A stretch of 35,974 bases of DNA, taken from positions 1 to 35,974 of the forward strand of contig JAJPZA010000031.1 of the NCBI GenBank assembly GCA_021204625.1, given 5' to 3'. The notes beneath the pieces were generated by a model. The model was not told where the DNA came from. It saw nothing but the letters and a program-made list of their open reading frames with translations, and did no database searches. A program made the translations under genes and the position numbers. Origin of the DNA: Clostridia bacterium (GTDB lineage: Bacteria; Bacillota; Clostridia; Christensenellales; Borkfalkiaceae). Positions 14,224-29,286 of the stretch are shown here, piece after piece; position 1 is the stretch's first letter, and every line of letters begins with the position of its first letter.

Positions 14224-17200
14224 ATGTTAAAGCATAAAATACTTTGGCTTGTTCTCACTATCGTGTTCGCAGTGCTCATGATTGTCATGTTCATCGCGAA
14301 CCCGATCGTTTATTCATTGGGAGTGAACGTATCGCTGAACAACTACCTGCCCAACATCGTTACTTCCAAGAAAAAGGGAGGAGAGAATGCTCCCGATTAC
14401 TATACCAGCGCATGGGACAGCAAGGAAGACCTCGAAGCGTATGAGGACGAGATCTGCCAGCAGCTTGAAGGCGAAGGCGCGGCTCTTCTCATGAACAACT
14501 ATGTAGAGGATGAGGACGAGTACGCTCTTCCGCTCCATGATGGAGACAACCTGTCTGTCTTCAGCATTTCATCATATGATTTCATGTACGGCGGCACAGG
14601 CTCCGGCGCCGTGAAGACGGACACTGCCGAGGACCTTCCCAACGCACTGTTTGACGCCGGATTCGGAATCAACGGATCGCTTGCCGGAAAATATTACCAG
14701 CTTACCACAAGGTACAAGAGAGAGGTTGCCGGTGCAACCGGCGGCTATTCCAGGGACTACAAGATCAACGAGGCTCCCGTGGATGAGCTGAGCTCCTGTG
14801 AGTCATTCTACGAGCAGTACGGCGATGCGGCCATCGTAACGCTTGCCCGTTCCGGCGGCGAGGGCGCAGACCTTCCCAGAGGAACAAGCGTGGCGGAAGG
14901 TTCCGGCGATTCCACGGATCTCAACAACGGCGATTACCTCGTTCTCAATGATGACGAGATAGAGCTTCTGGAATATCTCAGGGATTTCAAGGAAGACGGA
15001 ACGTTCAGCAAGATAATCGTTCTTCTCAACACATCCAATCCCATCCAGCTGGACTTCCTTAAGAAAGCGGAGGAGGATTACGGCATAGACGCAGTACTCT
15101 GGGTAGGAGACGTAGGCCAGTCCGGAATCACGTCCGTCGTAAACATCCTCAAGGGAGACATCAACCCTTCCGGCCGCATTGTGGACACCTTCCTCAATAA
15201 CAACCAGTCATCACCCGCAATGGCAAACTTCGGCATCTATGAGTACACCAACACCAAAGATCTAGGCCTTGCCTCCGCACAGAACAACTCGGACACAGCC
15301 ACGGCTTCAGAGGATCCGGATTCCACGACAGACTCGGACATCACAAAACTCAATTCCAGATATGTGGTGGAGGAAGAGGGCATCTATGTAGGCTACAAGT
15401 ACTACGAGACCCGTTATGAAGACTACGTTCTCGGCCAGGGCAATGCCGGAGAATACGAATACAGCTCGGATGTTGCATATCCTTTCGGCTTCGGCCTGTC
15501 CTATCTTGATGAAGATGGCAAGGACTACACCGGATCATGGGATTACAGCGAATTCAGTATGACTGAGAATGAGACTACGGACACATTCGATTTCTCAATC
15601 AAAGTCACTAACGGCACAGGCGTTGCAGGCAAGCACACAGTGCAGATTTACATGCAGTCTCCGTACACGGATTATGACAAGAACAATCTCGTGGAGAAGT
15701 CTTCCGTAGAGCTTGTCGGCTTTGAGAAGACTCAGACCCTTGCTGCAGGCGCTTCAGAGACACTCACCATCAAAGTAAACAGATCCGAGATGGCGTCATA
15801 TGATTCCAACGGGGCAAAGACATACATTGTGGATCCCGGCACGTATTACTTCACAGCAGGCAGGGATGCCCATGACGCCATCAACAACATCCTTGCTCAG
15901 AAAGCTTTAGACAACAAAACAACATATGAGAAGATGGACGCATCCGGAGACACTTCAGTAGTTGTCAAGCATACAGAGATTCTTGATACCAATTCCAGCA
16001 ATATTTACACGGACGGCTCCAACAGCTATGACGCAAACGCTGTGAAGTCCGTAAACCTTACATACAACACATCCGCTGCCACAGGCGTTGCCATCACCAA
16101 CCAGTTTGACTGCGCAGACGTAAACAATTACACAGGCACCGGCACCGGAAATGAAGAGGTCACATATCTTACCAGAAACGACTGGCAGGGAACATGGCCT
16201 TCAACTTATTCCATGACCGTTACAGAGCAGATGTGGGAAGACGGACTGGCATCGGATGACAGCTCAGTGGGCCCGGACAGAAGCACAGTGGGCTCAACCG
16301 TAAGGCAGAATCTCATATCTTCTGCAAAAGAGACGTTCAGCGCATATTATGAATCCAGGTACGGAACGGCCATAACGGAAGTGCCGGCAATGGGACAGGA
16401 CGGAGACATGCAGCTCTTCAAGGACATGGTCACCGCGAAACAGAATGCGGACGGCACGTATACGCTTACAAGGGTTGACATAAAGGATGATTCCTGGAAC
16501 AAGCTTCTTTCACAGGCAACGTACGCAGATATGACCAACCTCATTTACAACGGATTCAGAAACACGGCAGCCATTGACTCCATAGGCCTTCCCTCAACGA
16601 TAGACTTCAACGGACCTCAGGGATTCACAAACGCCATCACAGGCAGCCAGTCCGGAATGGCATACACGTCAGAGGACGTCATGGCCGCAACATTCAACCG
16701 CGATCTCGTCAGTGAGATGGGCGCATGCATGGGCGAGGACTTCCTTGACGCAGACTGCGCAGGCATCTACGGCCCTGGCGGAAACATCCACAGGACACCT
16801 TACTGCGGCAGAAACTTCGAGTATTACTCAGAGGACGGATTCCTCGGATCTGAGATGGCTTCCGTGGAGTGCGCAGCCATTGAGTCCAAGGGCGTATACG
16901 TTTACATGAAGCACTGCGTGCTCAACGACATGGAGAGCGGCAGATACGGACTTTCCACATTCGCAAACGAGCAGGCAATCCGCGAGATATATCTCAGGCC
17001 TTTCGAGGGCGCGGTTGAGAGCGGAGACATGGTAGGTGTCATGACGTCATTCAACCGTCTCGGCGTTGTATGGTCCGGCGCAAACTTCAATCTCATTACC
17101 GGAGTTCTTCGTGAGGAGTTCGGAATGATGGGACAGGCGATAACCGACTGCACGATGTTCGCAACAGCTTGTGATTACCGCCTCGGCGTTCTGGCAGGCC

Positions 17201-17496
17201 AGAACATCTGGGACGGCATGAGCATGGGCATGGCCCAGTTGGACGGCCTTGACAATGATGCTGTCATTGTTACAGCGGTCCGCGAAGGCGTAAAGTGGAT
17301 AGCTTACACGATAAGCGGATCCCTTGCGATGAATGGCATTGACGCGAGCACGAGAGTCGTTTCCGTGCTTCCTTGGTGGTCCAAGCTCATCTGGGGCCTC
17401 GGCGCCGTATTTGCAGTCCTGACAGTTGCCGGCGTGGTTCTTACAGTTCTTTCTTACAGGAAGGCAAAGCAGAACAAGGCGGCGGGCAAAAAATAA
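14224..17496 (+). CDS. Membrane-anchored GH3 glycosidase with permuted domain order
   Basis: N- and C-terminal TM segments; C-terminal-type alpha/beta sandwich (GEGAALLMNN, VLWVGDVGQSG) and Fn3-like region precede the TIM barrel (FNGPQGF, ATFNRDLVSEMG, MKHCVLNDMESGR, AITDC). Confidence 0.85.
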   Translation: MLKHKILWLVLTIVFAVLMIVMFIANPIVYSLGVNVSLNNYLPNIVTSKKKGGENAPDYYTSAWDSKEDLEAYEDEICQQLEGEGAALLMNNYVEDEDEYALPLHDGDNLSVFSISSYDFMYGGTGSGAVKTDTAEDLPNALFDAGFGINGSLAGKYYQLTTRYKREVAGATGGYSRDYKINEAPVDELSSCESFYEQYGDAAIVTLARSGGEGADLPRGTSVAEGSGDSTDLNNGDYLVLNDDEIELLEYLRDFKEDGTFSKIIVLLNTSNPIQLDFLKKAEEDYGIDAVLWVGDVGQSGITSVVNILKGDINPSGRIVDTFLNNNQSSPAMANFGIYEYTNTKDLGLASAQNNSDTATASEDPDSTTDSDITKLNSRYVVEEEGIYVGYKYYETRYEDYVLGQGNAGEYEYSSDVAYPFGFGLSYLDEDGKDYTGSWDYSEFSMTENETTDTFDFSIKVTNGTGVAGKHTVQIYMQSPYTDYDKNNLVEKSSVELVGFEKTQTLAAGASETLTIKVNRSEMASYDSNGAKTYIVDPGTYYFTAGRDAHDAINNILAQKALDNKTTYEKMDASGDTSVVVKHTEILDTNSSNIYTDGSNSYDANAVKSVNLTYNTSAATGVAITNQFDCADVNNYTGTGTGNEEVTYLTRNDWQGTWPSTYSMTVTEQMWEDGLASDDSSVGPDRSTVGSTVRQNLISSAKETFSAYYESRYGTAITEVPAMGQDGDMQLFKDMVTAKQNADGTYTLTRVDIKDDSWNKLLSQATYADMTNLIYNGFRNTAAIDSIGLPSTIDFNGPQGFTNAITGSQSGMAYTSEDVMAATFNRDLVSEMGACMGEDFLDADCAGIYGPGGNIHRTPYCGRNFEYYSEDGFLGSEMASVECAAIESKGVYVYMKHCVLNDMESGRYGLSTFANEQAIREIYLRPFEGAVESGDMVGVMTSFNRLGVVWSGANFNLITGVLREEFGMMGQAITDCTMFATACDYRLGVLAGQNIWDGMSMGMAQLDGLDNDAVIVTAVREGVKWIAYTISGSLAMNGIDASTRVVSVLPWWSKLIWGLGAVFAVLTVAGVVLTVLSYRKAKQNKAAGKK

Positions 17497-24734: not shown

Positions 24735-24965
24735 TGCTTGGAAAAGCCAGCGGAATTCCGGCAGAAGCAGAGGAAGAGAATCTGGACTCCACTCCGGCCG
24801 GTTCATTCGCGGCGGGCGGTAAAATTCTATCGCAGAATGCGGAAATATGCCCGCGAGACGCAAAAAAATGCGGAAATACGCCAATTTTATGATTTGCATA
24901 GTAATTTTTCGCAGGTGTGTAAAGTAATTTTTCAAAATTAAGAGAAATTTTATTTATGAAAACTA

Positions 24966-24994
24966 TTGACATCATTCCTTCTGTATGGTACACT
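24966..24994 (+). promoter_or_regulatory. Promoter upstream of the HTH-methyltransferase-like gene
   Basis: TTGACA-N17-TACACT. Confidence 0.65.
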
Positions 24995-25057
24995 CTAGCC
25001 GGTGAACGGAAATTAAACTGAATTATCAAATTTGCTAATTTCATGAAAAAAGTTTGC

Positions 25058-25132: not shown

Positions 25133-26302
25133 ATGAAGAAGATAGATTCGGAGGGCAAGGTGAAGTATCTCTCCGTAAAGGAGACGGCGGCCAAGTGGGG
25201 CGTTACGGAGAGAAGGATTACGCAGATGTGCAACAAGGGCCTCATCAAAGGAGCCATACAGCGCGGCGAGGCAAAGAAGTACTGGCTCATTCCCACCTAC
25301 GCGAAAAAGCCCGAAGACAAGAGGGTCCGCACGGGAAGGTATTCCAAGGGCAAGGACGGAATCTTGGACAGGTTCATGAACGAGCTGTTCGAGACGGATC
25401 CCATCTCAAAGCTCAAGGAGCTTCCTGCAGGGTCTGTGGACATGATCATAACGGACCTTTCCTTTATGCAGCGGGATGAGAAGGACATGGAGTCTCTTCC
25501 CACAATGTGGTCTGAATGCAGAAGGGTTCTCAAGGACACAGGCATTGCCGTTGTATGCACGGAAGGCCCCAGGGGATTCAAGGTAATCGCCGGAAACGAA
25601 GGGTGGCTGAGGTACAAGTTCACATGGATATACAACAGCGGATGGATTGAACGCTGCCCCTCATTCATGCCCAGGCGTCATCATATGGATGTGTGGGTTT
25701 TTGCCAAGGATGACGAGACGGCCTCGCTCCGCGGCAAGGCTGCAGACTTTGAAGGGCTCGTGCATTACGGCTCCGATGATGCCGGATGCATCACGGATGT
25801 CATCTGCTTCCAGAAAAAAGACGGGAGCATGGTGACGGGGTTTGAAAGTGAGAAGGAGCTTTTGGGAAGGTTCCTCATCCGCACATACACGAAACCAGGG
25901 GACGTGGTTTTGGACAACGCATGCAGCATGCTGTCCTTCATAAAGGCAGCCCTTGGCGAGGGCAGGAATTTCATTGGCATGGAGGCCAGGAACTATCCGC
26001 TGAGCCGGGAGTACTATAAGGATGATGCCGGTTCAAGCGGGCTTCACATGGCAGACTCCGCTTCCATAAAAACGCGCTCATACATAGAGGACAACATGCT
26101 GGACCTGTACAAGGTATGGAAGGATCTTCCAATGAAGCAGCGCCTGAACATCGAATACGCCGGAGAGATAGCCGAGTTCGAGAGATACAATGACGACCTT
26201 TTCGAGCTGTATAACGCAGGCGAATATCCCGATTATTACGGATATTCGTTTGAAGAGTTTCGGAAAGGGCCGGAAGAAGGCACGGAGGATGAGAAGCAAT
26301 GA
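25133..26302 (+). CDS. HTH (excisionase/MerR-like) fused to a degenerate beta-class DNA methyltransferase-like domain
   Basis: N-term YLSVKETAAKWGVTERRITQMCNKGLIKGAIQRGEAKKYWLIP; then LKELPAGSVDMIITDLSF, KFTWIYNSG, LGRFLIRTYTKPGDVVLDNACSMLSFIKAALGEGRNFIGMEARNY matches the MTase scaffold. Confidence 0.8.
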   Translation: MKKIDSEGKVKYLSVKETAAKWGVTERRITQMCNKGLIKGAIQRGEAKKYWLIPTYAKKPEDKRVRTGRYSKGKDGILDRFMNELFETDPISKLKELPAGSVDMIITDLSFMQRDEKDMESLPTMWSECRRVLKDTGIAVVCTEGPRGFKVIAGNEGWLRYKFTWIYNSGWIERCPSFMPRRHHMDVWVFAKDDETASLRGKAADFEGLVHYGSDDAGCITDVICFQKKDGSMVTGFESEKELLGRFLIRTYTKPGDVVLDNACSMLSFIKAALGEGRNFIGMEARNYPLSREYYKDDAGSSGLHMADSASIKTRSYIEDNMLDLYKVWKDLPMKQRLNIEYAGEIAEFERYNDDLFELYNAGEYPDYYGYSFEEFRKGPEEGTEDEKQ

Positions 26303-27525
26303 CAGAAACCAGACTGGACAAATACGCAACCTTGCTTGTTAAAACCGGGCTCAACGTGAAGCCCGGGCAGGAAGTGATCATTCAGTGCGGCCTGGACCAG
26401 CCGGACTTCGTAACCCTTGTGGTGAAGAAGTGCTATGAGGCCGGCGCATCCAGGGTCACCGTTAAATGGGAGCACATGCCCGTCTCAAAACTCGGATATG
26501 AGTACCGCTCTTTGGAGACCCTTTCGGAGGTTTTGCCTCAGGAGACGGAGGAATGGAAGAGGCGCGCGGAAAAGCACGTGTGCTATCTGTGGCTGGATTC
26601 GGATGACCCGGACGGGCTGGACGGCACGGACAGCGAGAAGATCGCCAGGGCAAATATGGCCAGGTATCCGTACCTCAAGCCGTACAAGGATGCTTTGGAG
26701 AACAATTACCAGTGGTGCATAGCCGCCGTCCCCGGGAAGGCATGGGCCAGGAAGATTTTCCCGTCTTTGGATGAAGACGCCGCAGTGGAAAAGCTTTGGG
26801 AATACATACTTCTCTGTTCCCGTGTGGACGATGATCCTGTGGAGGCTTGGCGCAGGCACAATGAAGAGCTGGACATGCGCTGCGCCGTACTTAACAGGTA
26901 CCGTTTTGACCGCCTGGAATACAGGAGCCCGGGCGGCACGGATTTCACCGTATGGCTCAATCCCAAGGGCATTTTCTCCGCCGGCGGGGAGTATTCATTG
27001 AGCAACGGCGTGTACTTCAATCCAAATATTCCCAGCGAGGAAGTGTTCACGTCTCCCTTGAGCGGAAAGGCTGAAGGGAAGGTCGTTGCCACAAAGCCGC
27101 TGTCCTACCAGGGGAAGCTCATAGAGGATTTCTGGTTCGTCTTCAGGGACGGCGCCGTCTCCGAGGTCCATGCCCGCACCAACCAGGATGCCCTGGAAAA
27201 GATGGTGAAGATGGACGAAGGGGCCTGCAGGATTGGCGAAGTGGCCCTCATAGCCCTGGATTCTCCCGTGAACCTCACAGGGGTCCTGTTCTACAACACC
27301 CTGTTTGATGAGAACGCCAGCTGCCACATAGCCCTGGGGCGCGGGTTCAACGAGTGCCTTGAGGGATATGAGAGCATGACTGTGGAGGAGTGCGAAAAGG
27401 CCGGGGTGAACAATTCCATGATTCACACAGACTTCATGATAGGCTCTCCGGACCTCTGCATAACGGGCATCACAAAGGACGGAGAGAGGATCCCGGTGTT
27501 CATAAACGGCCGCTGGGCCTTTTGA
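26299..27525 (+). CDS. Aminopeptidase, M29 (thermophilic metalloprotease) family
   Basis: KYATLLVKTGLNVKPGQEVIIQCGLDQPDFV, GTDFTVWLNP, ALGRGFNEC, NNSMIHTDFMIGSPDLCITGITKDG. Confidence 0.92.
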   Translation: MTETRLDKYATLLVKTGLNVKPGQEVIIQCGLDQPDFVTLVVKKCYEAGASRVTVKWEHMPVSKLGYEYRSLETLSEVLPQETEEWKRRAEKHVCYLWLDSDDPDGLDGTDSEKIARANMARYPYLKPYKDALENNYQWCIAAVPGKAWARKIFPSLDEDAAVEKLWEYILLCSRVDDDPVEAWRRHNEELDMRCAVLNRYRFDRLEYRSPGGTDFTVWLNPKGIFSAGGEYSLSNGVYFNPNIPSEEVFTSPLSGKAEGKVVATKPLSYQGKLIEDFWFVFRDGAVSEVHARTNQDALEKMVKMDEGACRIGEVALIALDSPVNLTGVLFYNTLFDENASCHIALGRGFNECLEGYESMTVEECEKAGVNNSMIHTDFMIGSPDLCITGITKDGERIPVFINGRWAF

Positions 27526-27638: not shown

Positions 27639-28130
27639 ATGACAGTGCTTTATTTAGGAAAGCTTGAGGAGCTGGAGAACAGGCTCTATGAAAAGAAGCC
27701 GAAGCTTACCAGGGCGGAGCAGAGGATTATAGAAATGTACACGGAATCCAAGAAGTGCGGCTATGACTATCTGTGCGTGGACGCCATCTCGGTGGGCTGC
27801 CTGCTCTCCCGTTATGACAGAGTGAACACCGAGGCTCTGCAGTTCCAGATTGACGTCATAGAAGAGCTGAGAAAGCTCGGCGTCAGGCACGTGCTGTATA
27901 CAAGAGAGCCGGATTTTGTGAAGGATATGTATTTTTTTTGCTATATCTGCGGCTGCAAGGTGAACGCATTTGACCCATGGATCCGTCATGACGAGATGTG
28001 CTCATCCAGGGAAAGGGGCGTAATACTGGACCTGAACAGGAACGAGACGGAAATCATAACGCCCCAGATTCCCTCAAGGAATGAGTATTACAGCAACCGC
28101 GGCAGAGGGGATGCCACATATCTGGACTGA
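27639..28130 (+). CDS. Hypothetical protein
   Basis: MTVLYLGKLEELENRLYEKKPKLTRAEQRIIEMY...; GGAGG SD upstream. Confidence 0.65.
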   Translation: MTVLYLGKLEELENRLYEKKPKLTRAEQRIIEMYTESKKCGYDYLCVDAISVGCLLSRYDRVNTEALQFQIDVIEELRKLGVRHVLYTREPDFVKDMYFFCYICGCKVNAFDPWIRHDEMCSSRERGVILDLNRNETEIITPQIPSRNEYYSNRGRGDATYLD

Positions 28131-28160
28131 GTCCGGCAGGAACCGGCCTGCTTCAGGTTT

Positions 28161-28247
28161 GGGAAGCCGCCCGGGCTGCTGCGGCGGATTTATCAGGCCG
28201 GGCTGCTGCGTCGGATATATCAGGGTCCGTGCTGTTTCGGAGGATAT
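28161..28247. repeat. Imperfect tandem repeat, 3 x about 27-29 bp (CCGGGCTGCTGCGKCGGATWTATCAGG)
   Basis: Direct reading; last degenerate copy runs into the SD of the next gene. Confidence 0.75.
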
Positions 28248-28263
28248 ATTAGGAGGGAAAAGG

Positions 28264-29286
28264 ATGAGCAAGATACCGGAGCATGAGATTCATGTCACGC
28301 CCAATAAAAAGGGCAAGGGATATCTGTATGAGATAGATTTTGAGAATGAGCTCGGGAAGTTCTACGCCGTTGCCAATGACGCGGAGTCATGCGAAAAGGC
28401 CTTCCGCAAGCAGTACAGGCACGAGCTTAAGAAGGCCATGAGGGAATATGAAGGCACGGATGAAGAGCCGGAGGCAGGCGGGGAGCCGGAGGCGAGCCCC
28501 TCGGACCCGGACGCCGTGTACAGGATGCAGTCCTCGAAAAGCAAGATAAGGGTGGAGCTCAACCAGGACAATCTGCCAAGGGATCTGGGGTCTCTTGCGG
28601 ACCTGTTCTTTGACGTCGTGTACAAGCAGGACCCGGACATGCCACAGGAGGAGCTTGCCAAAAACAGGGACCTTTTCAACCTTTTGGTGGTAAGCGCCAA
28701 CGAGGACCGGAGCATGACGTATCTGGACTCGCATGACATCAAGGACACCTGCAAGACGCTGGTGGAGGATGACAATTCCGAAGTGGCGGAAATGATAGAG
28801 CAGATAGTCGTCAAGATGAAGAGCCTGGCTTCCGGCATCTATTCCATCCGCCGGGACATCCAGAATGACATGCGTGAGAAGTATGACATCATGACGGACG
28901 AAGAGATAGGGGAGCTCCTTTCCGGAACGGCCGGAACCAAGTTCCAGCTCATGTTCGCCGTCCCGCTGTTCATAGGGATAGACATCAGCCAAAGGCGCCA
29001 GATAAGGATTCACAAGGGTTACGTCTCCACGACCACGGACATGGACGAGAGGGATGAGATGAACATGAATCACTACACCATGACGGACAACCTGGACGGC
29101 TTCATCACGAAGAACACGGACAGGAAGCTCGGCAAGTACAGGGACAATGACGGGAAGATCTCAGACCACGCCATCGCCCTCACGATCGGAGACCCCTCGC
29201 AGCTCGAGGACATTCTCACGGAGCACTGCCCCGGCCACACTTTAAAGGACCTGTACGCAACCTTCTGGGTAAGAGGACTGGACTGA
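28264..29286 (+). CDS. Hypothetical protein
   Basis: AGGAGGG SD then MSKIPEHEIHVTPNKKGKGYLYEIDFENELGKFYAVAND... Confidence 0.8.
   Translation: MSKIPEHEIHVTPNKKGKGYLYEIDFENELGKFYAVANDAESCEKAFRKQYRHELKKAMREYEGTDEEPEAGGEPEASPSDPDAVYRMQSSKSKIRVELNQDNLPRDLGSLADLFFDVVYKQDPDMPQEELAKNRDLFNLLVVSANEDRSMTYLDSHDIKDTCKTLVEDDNSEVAEMIEQIVVKMKSLASGIYSIRRDIQNDMREKYDIMTDEEIGELLSGTAGTKFQLMFAVPLFIGIDISQRRQIRIHKGYVSTTTDMDERDEMNMNHYTMTDNLDGFITKNTDRKLGKYRDNDGKISDHAIALTIGDPSQLEDILTEHCPGHTLKDLYATFWVRGLD

Follow-up and report, generated by a model that had tools for sequence, protein, structure and literature searches.

An HTH-fused DNA methyltransferase homologue that has lost its catalytic motifs and is retained under purifying selection: a probable transcription factor in a sublineage of Clostridia

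The closest described precedents for a DNA methyltransferase (MTase) turned regulator are M.SsoII and M.Ecl18kI, C5 MTases with a fused helix-turn-helix (HTH) that act as transcription factors (PMC3978073, PMC3695355). Control of transcription by these proteins survives loss of methylation, with the C142A mutant binding the regulatory site more tightly (Kd of 35 versus 248 nM), and it requires the MTase domain (PMC3695355). Like the protein described here, they join an N-terminal HTH region of about 70 residues to an MTase domain; unlike it, they are 5mC enzymes with a C-protein-like HTH, are active in their natural forms, and belong to restriction-modification (R-M) systems. Because of their MTase class and HTH type, M.SsoII is an analogue of the present protein and not a homologue. 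METTL14 is a member of the eukaryotic RNA m6A complex with METTL3 as its obligate partner, and to our knowledge it has no HTH of the kind found here. It resembles the present protein in having kept the MTase fold despite losing features of catalysis and SAM binding (PMC5023411). The fold is also common to RsrI, CcrM, M1.HpyAVI, and rotifer N4CMT (Foldseek E values of 7e-13 to 5e-9), which differ in being active enzymes with intact motifs and without a fused HTH of this type.

The gene under study lies in a 35,974-nt stretch of DNA from a Clostridia bacterium, referred to throughout as the window (Table 1), and is a genuine open reading frame with the motif changes as first described. The body of its product matches N6_N4_Mtase in Pfam (residues 122-287; E of 4.5e-9, over the curated cutoff) and DNA methyltransferases in PHROGs (phrog_67, 2e-22) and PADLOC (MTase_II, 9.6e-20). 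Its N terminus is classed as an excisionase by PHROGs (3.3e-5) and matches HTH_17 over residues 12-54 with an E value of 0.0012, under the Pfam cutoff; NCBIfam returned no match over its cutoff for this protein. The original prediction of an HTH on a beta-class MTase scaffold is thus borne out, with the HTH score below threshold in Pfam, and its expectation of a retained fold agrees with modeling. AF2, run with the family alignment, gave a predicted structure with pLDDT 77 and pTM 0.70, reaching a pLDDT of about 86-93 over the HTH (residues 11-60), and the best Foldseek matches to this model are the beta-class MTases 8s9o, CcrM, MboIIA, M1.HpyAVI, and RsrI. A paralogue model (pLDDT 76) behaves alike. 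As both AF2 alignments included intact MTases, the fold result is supportive rather than independent.

Table 1. Features of the locus, in window coordinates
Feature	Position	Strand	Basis
Sigma-70-like promoter, TTGACA-17-TACACT	24966..24994	+	Consensus scan, 10/12; aligned in three species
Candidate operator, inverted repeat GAAATTA ... AATTTC	25008..25042	+	Alignment; constant spacing in three species
HTH-pseudomethyltransferase gene	25133..26302	+	ORF, ATG at 25133, TGA at 26300-26302, 389 aa; orthologues in two species, 53-55% identity
N-terminal HTH with wing, excisionase/MerR-like (residues 12-64)	25166..25324	+	HTH_17, PHROG, AF2
Degenerate beta-class MTase domain (residues 82-290)	25376..26002	+	Pfam, phrog_67, PADLOC MTase_II, Foldseek
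Former catalytic motif IV, DLSFMQ (residues 108-113) for DLPYGxT	25454..25471	+	Alignment with 19 intact MTases
Former HPTQKP position, FESEK (residues 237-241)	25841..25855	+	Alignment with 19 intact MTases
Former SAM motif I, DNACSML (residues 261-267) for DNACGSG	25913..25933	+	Alignment with 19 intact MTases
M29 aminopeptidase gene, downstream	26299..27525	+	Peptidase_M29, 9.4e-150 (Pfam); adjoins the pseudomethyltransferase gene in all three species

In the genomes searched, relatives that share the degeneracy are few. Among 94 genomes of the genus, an orthologue (family A, 53-55% identity) was found only in two sister species, G025 and G084, and the source genome itself (G000) encodes one clear paralogue, G000:C19, at 33% identity; this second family, B, is present in two of the three genomes, G000 and G084. 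Beyond the two sister species, a profile scan matched just one paralogue and one distant intact MTase, and a contig scan with the single window protein as the query gave no match. Across samples drawn from the order (396 genomes), the class (392), and the phylum (399), no further degenerate members turned up, only intact relatives. The five degenerate proteins form one clade, on one side of a branch with support of 99/98, and therefore their shared losses most simply predate the split between families A and B.

The extent of these losses is apparent from an alignment of the five proteins with 19 intact relatives, in which 52 columns are near invariant among the intact set. The five have all lost the intact residue at 24 of these columns and all kept it at 11, the remaining 17 being mixed. 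The columns lost throughout include H, T, Q, and P in HPTQKP, Tyr in DLPY, and the first Gly in GSG, while the columns kept throughout (S101, D103, W126, R131, K134, Y161, W165, F190, L244, D261, and R278) are plausibly structural. At motif IV neither (D/N/S)PP(Y/F/W) nor the family form DLPY is present: the window protein has TDLSFMQ where DLPYG is expected, its orthologues have TDLSFMQ and TDLYFLQ, and the paralogues have CELPNAR and SEIPLRE, giving DLSF or DLYF in family A and ELPN or EIPL in family B. The GxG loop of motif I is likewise absent, GSG having become SML, NHL, YHL, or YTG (DNACSML for DNACGSG in the window protein, DNACYHL and DNACNHL in its orthologues, DNAGYTG in the paralogues). 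HPTQKP, read as ESEK in the window protein, is gone from all five, and about 30 residues of the target-recognition region are deleted just before its position. The alterations recur at these positions in two paralogues and in two orthologues whose assemblies are independent, which excludes chance and sequencing error as their cause. Part of the target-recognition region has thus gone, and with it the catalytic, SAM-loop, and HPTQKP motifs. The alignment bears out what had been read from the window alone, namely the loss of motifs I, IV, and HPTQKP, and the degeneracy proved to be conserved in both sister species; orthologues with intact motifs, named at the outset as the main evidence to look for on the other side, were sought, and none was found among the true orthologues.

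The ancestry of the protein can be followed to an intact enzyme. In a genome of the same order and another family (G337), the HTH-MTase L070 and the window protein are collinear throughout, HTH and C-terminal helices included. L070 has the same HTH and the same MTase domain, and it has DLPYG, HPTQKP, and DNACGSGSFLVAALQEGRNFIG, the last of which aligns with DNACSMLSFIKAALGEGRNFIG of the window protein. The MTase domain is also that of the phage and plasmid site-specific DNA methyltransferases of phrog_67 and PADLOC PDLC03251, many of which match the L070 domain at roughly 40-75% identity, mostly without an HTH. The signatures LIRTY(S/T)xPGDxxLDNAC and EGRNFIG are common to the window protein and the L070/phrog_67 enzymes, which differ from it in their intact DLPY, HPTQKP, and GSG and their full target-recognition region. 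A gene for a Type IIG restriction enzyme (PADLOC, 2.6e-124) overlaps that of L070, and a large open reading frame that appears similar by eye also lies next to two other intact relatives, L126 and L127; the window gene, unlike L070, adjoins M29 rather than a IIG enzyme, and no homologue of the IIG neighbor of L070 was found in G000, G025, or G084. The window protein shares ancestry over its whole length with this kind of HTH-fused beta-class MTase that accompanies Type IIG enzymes.

Within the order this HTH type is common and is found fused to intact beta-class MTases (L007 and L014), to D12 MTases (read at 16 or more loci, with L008 confirmed by Pfam at 2.4e-63), and to Fic-like and N6_Mtase-like proteins. 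Given these fusions and the intact, collinear L070, the architecture is not new, contrary to the suggestion in the original prediction that it may be undescribed; a search of the open-access literature for bacterial DNA methyltransferases that carry a fused HTH or are catalytically dead yielded nothing pertinent. What is new is that catalysis has been lost while the gene is retained under selection. As a separate observation, one winged HTH type (seen at many loci of the order, for example L008, L010, L016, and L018) occurs in fusion with D12 MTases and with Fic-like, N6_Mtase-like, and ATPase-like proteins.

The chromosomal setting is partly shared among the species. The stop codon of the window gene and the start codon of M29 overlap as ATGA, a four-base overlap is also found in G084, and the genes are separated by a 17-nt gap in G025. 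The window and G084 have in common a gene order around M29 of what we take, from recognition of the sequences, to be a pyruvate kinase-like gene, an RlmI-like gene, and ABC transporters; M29 and one of the ABC transporters were confirmed by Pfam. M29 is a core gene (55/61 genomes), and among the other members of the genus that were examined, the neighbor upstream of it is an ABC permease or nothing recognizable, so that the pseudomethyltransferase gene was either gained before M29 in this sublineage or lost elsewhere. Downstream of M29, a conserved protein without a Pfam match is encoded at 28081-29286 (+), with a likely start near 28264, and is 55-56% identical to that at L035:7872-9050, which has the same position relative to M29 in its own species. 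Elsewhere in the window, the gene at 14224-17496 (+) encodes a GH3-family protein with a reversed domain order in Pfam, in which GH3_C (100-383) and an Fn3-like domain (471-548) precede GH3_N (814-985).

A 130-nt leader upstream of the gene, with its putative promoter and candidate operator, aligns in the three species. The exact inverted-repeat pattern occurs genome-wide only at the window site, with one single-mismatch site elsewhere, so a genome search for a regulon by this repeat gave only that one weak extra site; the repeat is absent from the promoters of family B. The notion of an exceptionally conserved operator was rejected, as conservation over the promoter region is 0.78 against 0.79-0.87 for five of six control promoters and 0.73 for the sixth, most of the controls (5/6) being conserved equally or better. 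A riboswitch or structured leader was also rejected, with no Rfam match and folding no better than that of shuffled sequences. Further upstream, between genes and ahead of the promoter, two 16-nt direct repeats, AATGCGGAAATAYGCC, lie 31 nt apart at 24836-24882.

The explanation we favor, and consider rather probable, is that the protein is a domesticated, catalytically dead HTH-DNA methyltransferase that serves as a DNA-binding, probably autoregulatory, transcription factor. The HTH would bind a specific operator, the dead MTase domain may add nonspecific grip on DNA, dimerization, or both, and the protein would most likely regulate its own promoter and therefore also control the presumably cotranscribed aminopeptidase, adjacency being the one observation that suggests a regulatory link to M29. 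Weighing against this reading are the unexceptional conservation of the promoter region and the failure of the inverted-repeat search to yield a regulon. By analogy, it looks like a natural counterpart, in a different MTase class, of the catalytic knockout of M.Ecl18kI/M.SsoII. If this is true, we would have a natural M.SsoII-like catalytic knockout that still regulates and a bacterial counterpart of METTL14-type pseudoenzymes. More speculatively, and with doubt on our part, both families could make up a class of pseudomethyltransferase transcription factors, domesticated and duplicated from R-M HTH-MTases, in which a remodeled pocket senses a ligand or DNA modification and controls host operons. 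In any case, the status of the protein as a pseudoenzyme is well supported, its intact relative is clear, and the protein itself is rare in the genomes searched. The path from a traceable R-M enzyme to a probable regulator can be followed through an intact ancestor-like form, a dead form, duplication, and continued selection, all of them visible. Annotation pipelines will label such genes as active DNA methyltransferases.

An alternative, which we regard as unlikely, is that the protein is a noncatalytic partner of an active beta-class MTase encoded elsewhere, supplying DNA binding or stability much as METTL14 does for METTL3. Beta-class MTases often dimerize, and the source genome does encode an intact relative (G000:C193, 40% to P0002), both of which speak for such a partnership. 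So does the METTL14-like character of family B at motif IV, the specific point at which METTL14 resembles that family: L066 has EIPL. METTL14 has EPPL where METTL3 has DPPW (PMC5023411). However, neither G025 nor G084 has an equally strong counterpart of the G000:C193 MTase, and therefore the pseudomethyltransferase family has no consistent MTase partner; its gene moreover adjoins an aminopeptidase, not an MTase. Independently of this question, the likeness between EIPL of L066 and EPPL of METTL14 may reflect a convergent route to a dead MTase. The family B loci of two species (L036:11942-15467 and L034:3945-7732) adjoin a VirD4/TraG-like coupling protein (T4SS-DNA_transf in Pfam, 6e-43, in L036) and a large uncharacterized protein, and in both a shared gene, RadA-like by reading, lies nearby.

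A sensor function, with the HTH gated by binding of SAM, a nucleotide, or a modified base in the remodeled former SAM pocket, is improbable to a similar degree. It would fit the finding that conservation within the protein is highest (70-80% identity) around the former motifs IV and I, and the persistence in family A of D261 and E284, two acidic residues that the intact enzymes conserve, favors it and counts against a dead enzyme. Yet the first Gly of the motif I loop has become Ser, Asn, or Tyr in all five proteins, a change expected to crowd a SAM-like ligand. That the protein is instead an active MTase with unusual motifs is highly improbable: D108 and the aromatic F111 of motif IV do remain in family A, but HPTQKP and the GSG loop have disappeared jointly with the Pro of DLPY, a stretch of the target-recognition region is missing, and family B has lost the catalytic Asp as well.

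Returning to the favored transcription factor, we find that the loss of catalysis has not released the gene from constraint. Between orthologues, dN/dS is 0.29-0.32 by NG86 and 0.13-0.14 by maximum likelihood (ML) for two of the three pairs, the ML value of the third being left out because dS was saturated; family B gives 0.35 (NG86) and 0.16 (ML), and the neighboring M29 gives 0.04-0.08. By region, omega is 0.13-0.24 over the HTH and the N- and C-terminal halves of the MTase domain and looser over the target-recognition region and tail, with identities of 64-68% (HTH), 70-73% (N half), 76-80% (C half), and 43-44% (target-recognition region). The low omega of the two MTase halves, together with identity above that of the HTH, indicates that the dead domain itself is maintained. 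Low dN/dS overall and by region supports purifying selection, and two paralogous families have arisen, with the window gene retained by such selection before a core aminopeptidase gene. In neutral simulation with 0.2 changes per site per lineage, 1 of 1,000 runs kept the reading frame open. A decaying pseudogene is accordingly scarcely credible. The window gene does evolve at several times the rate of the adjacent M29 (omega of 0.13-0.3 versus 0.04-0.08), but three species and two paralogous families have kept the reading frame intact at dS >1, omega is low, and the chance of neutral survival of the frame is essentially nil.
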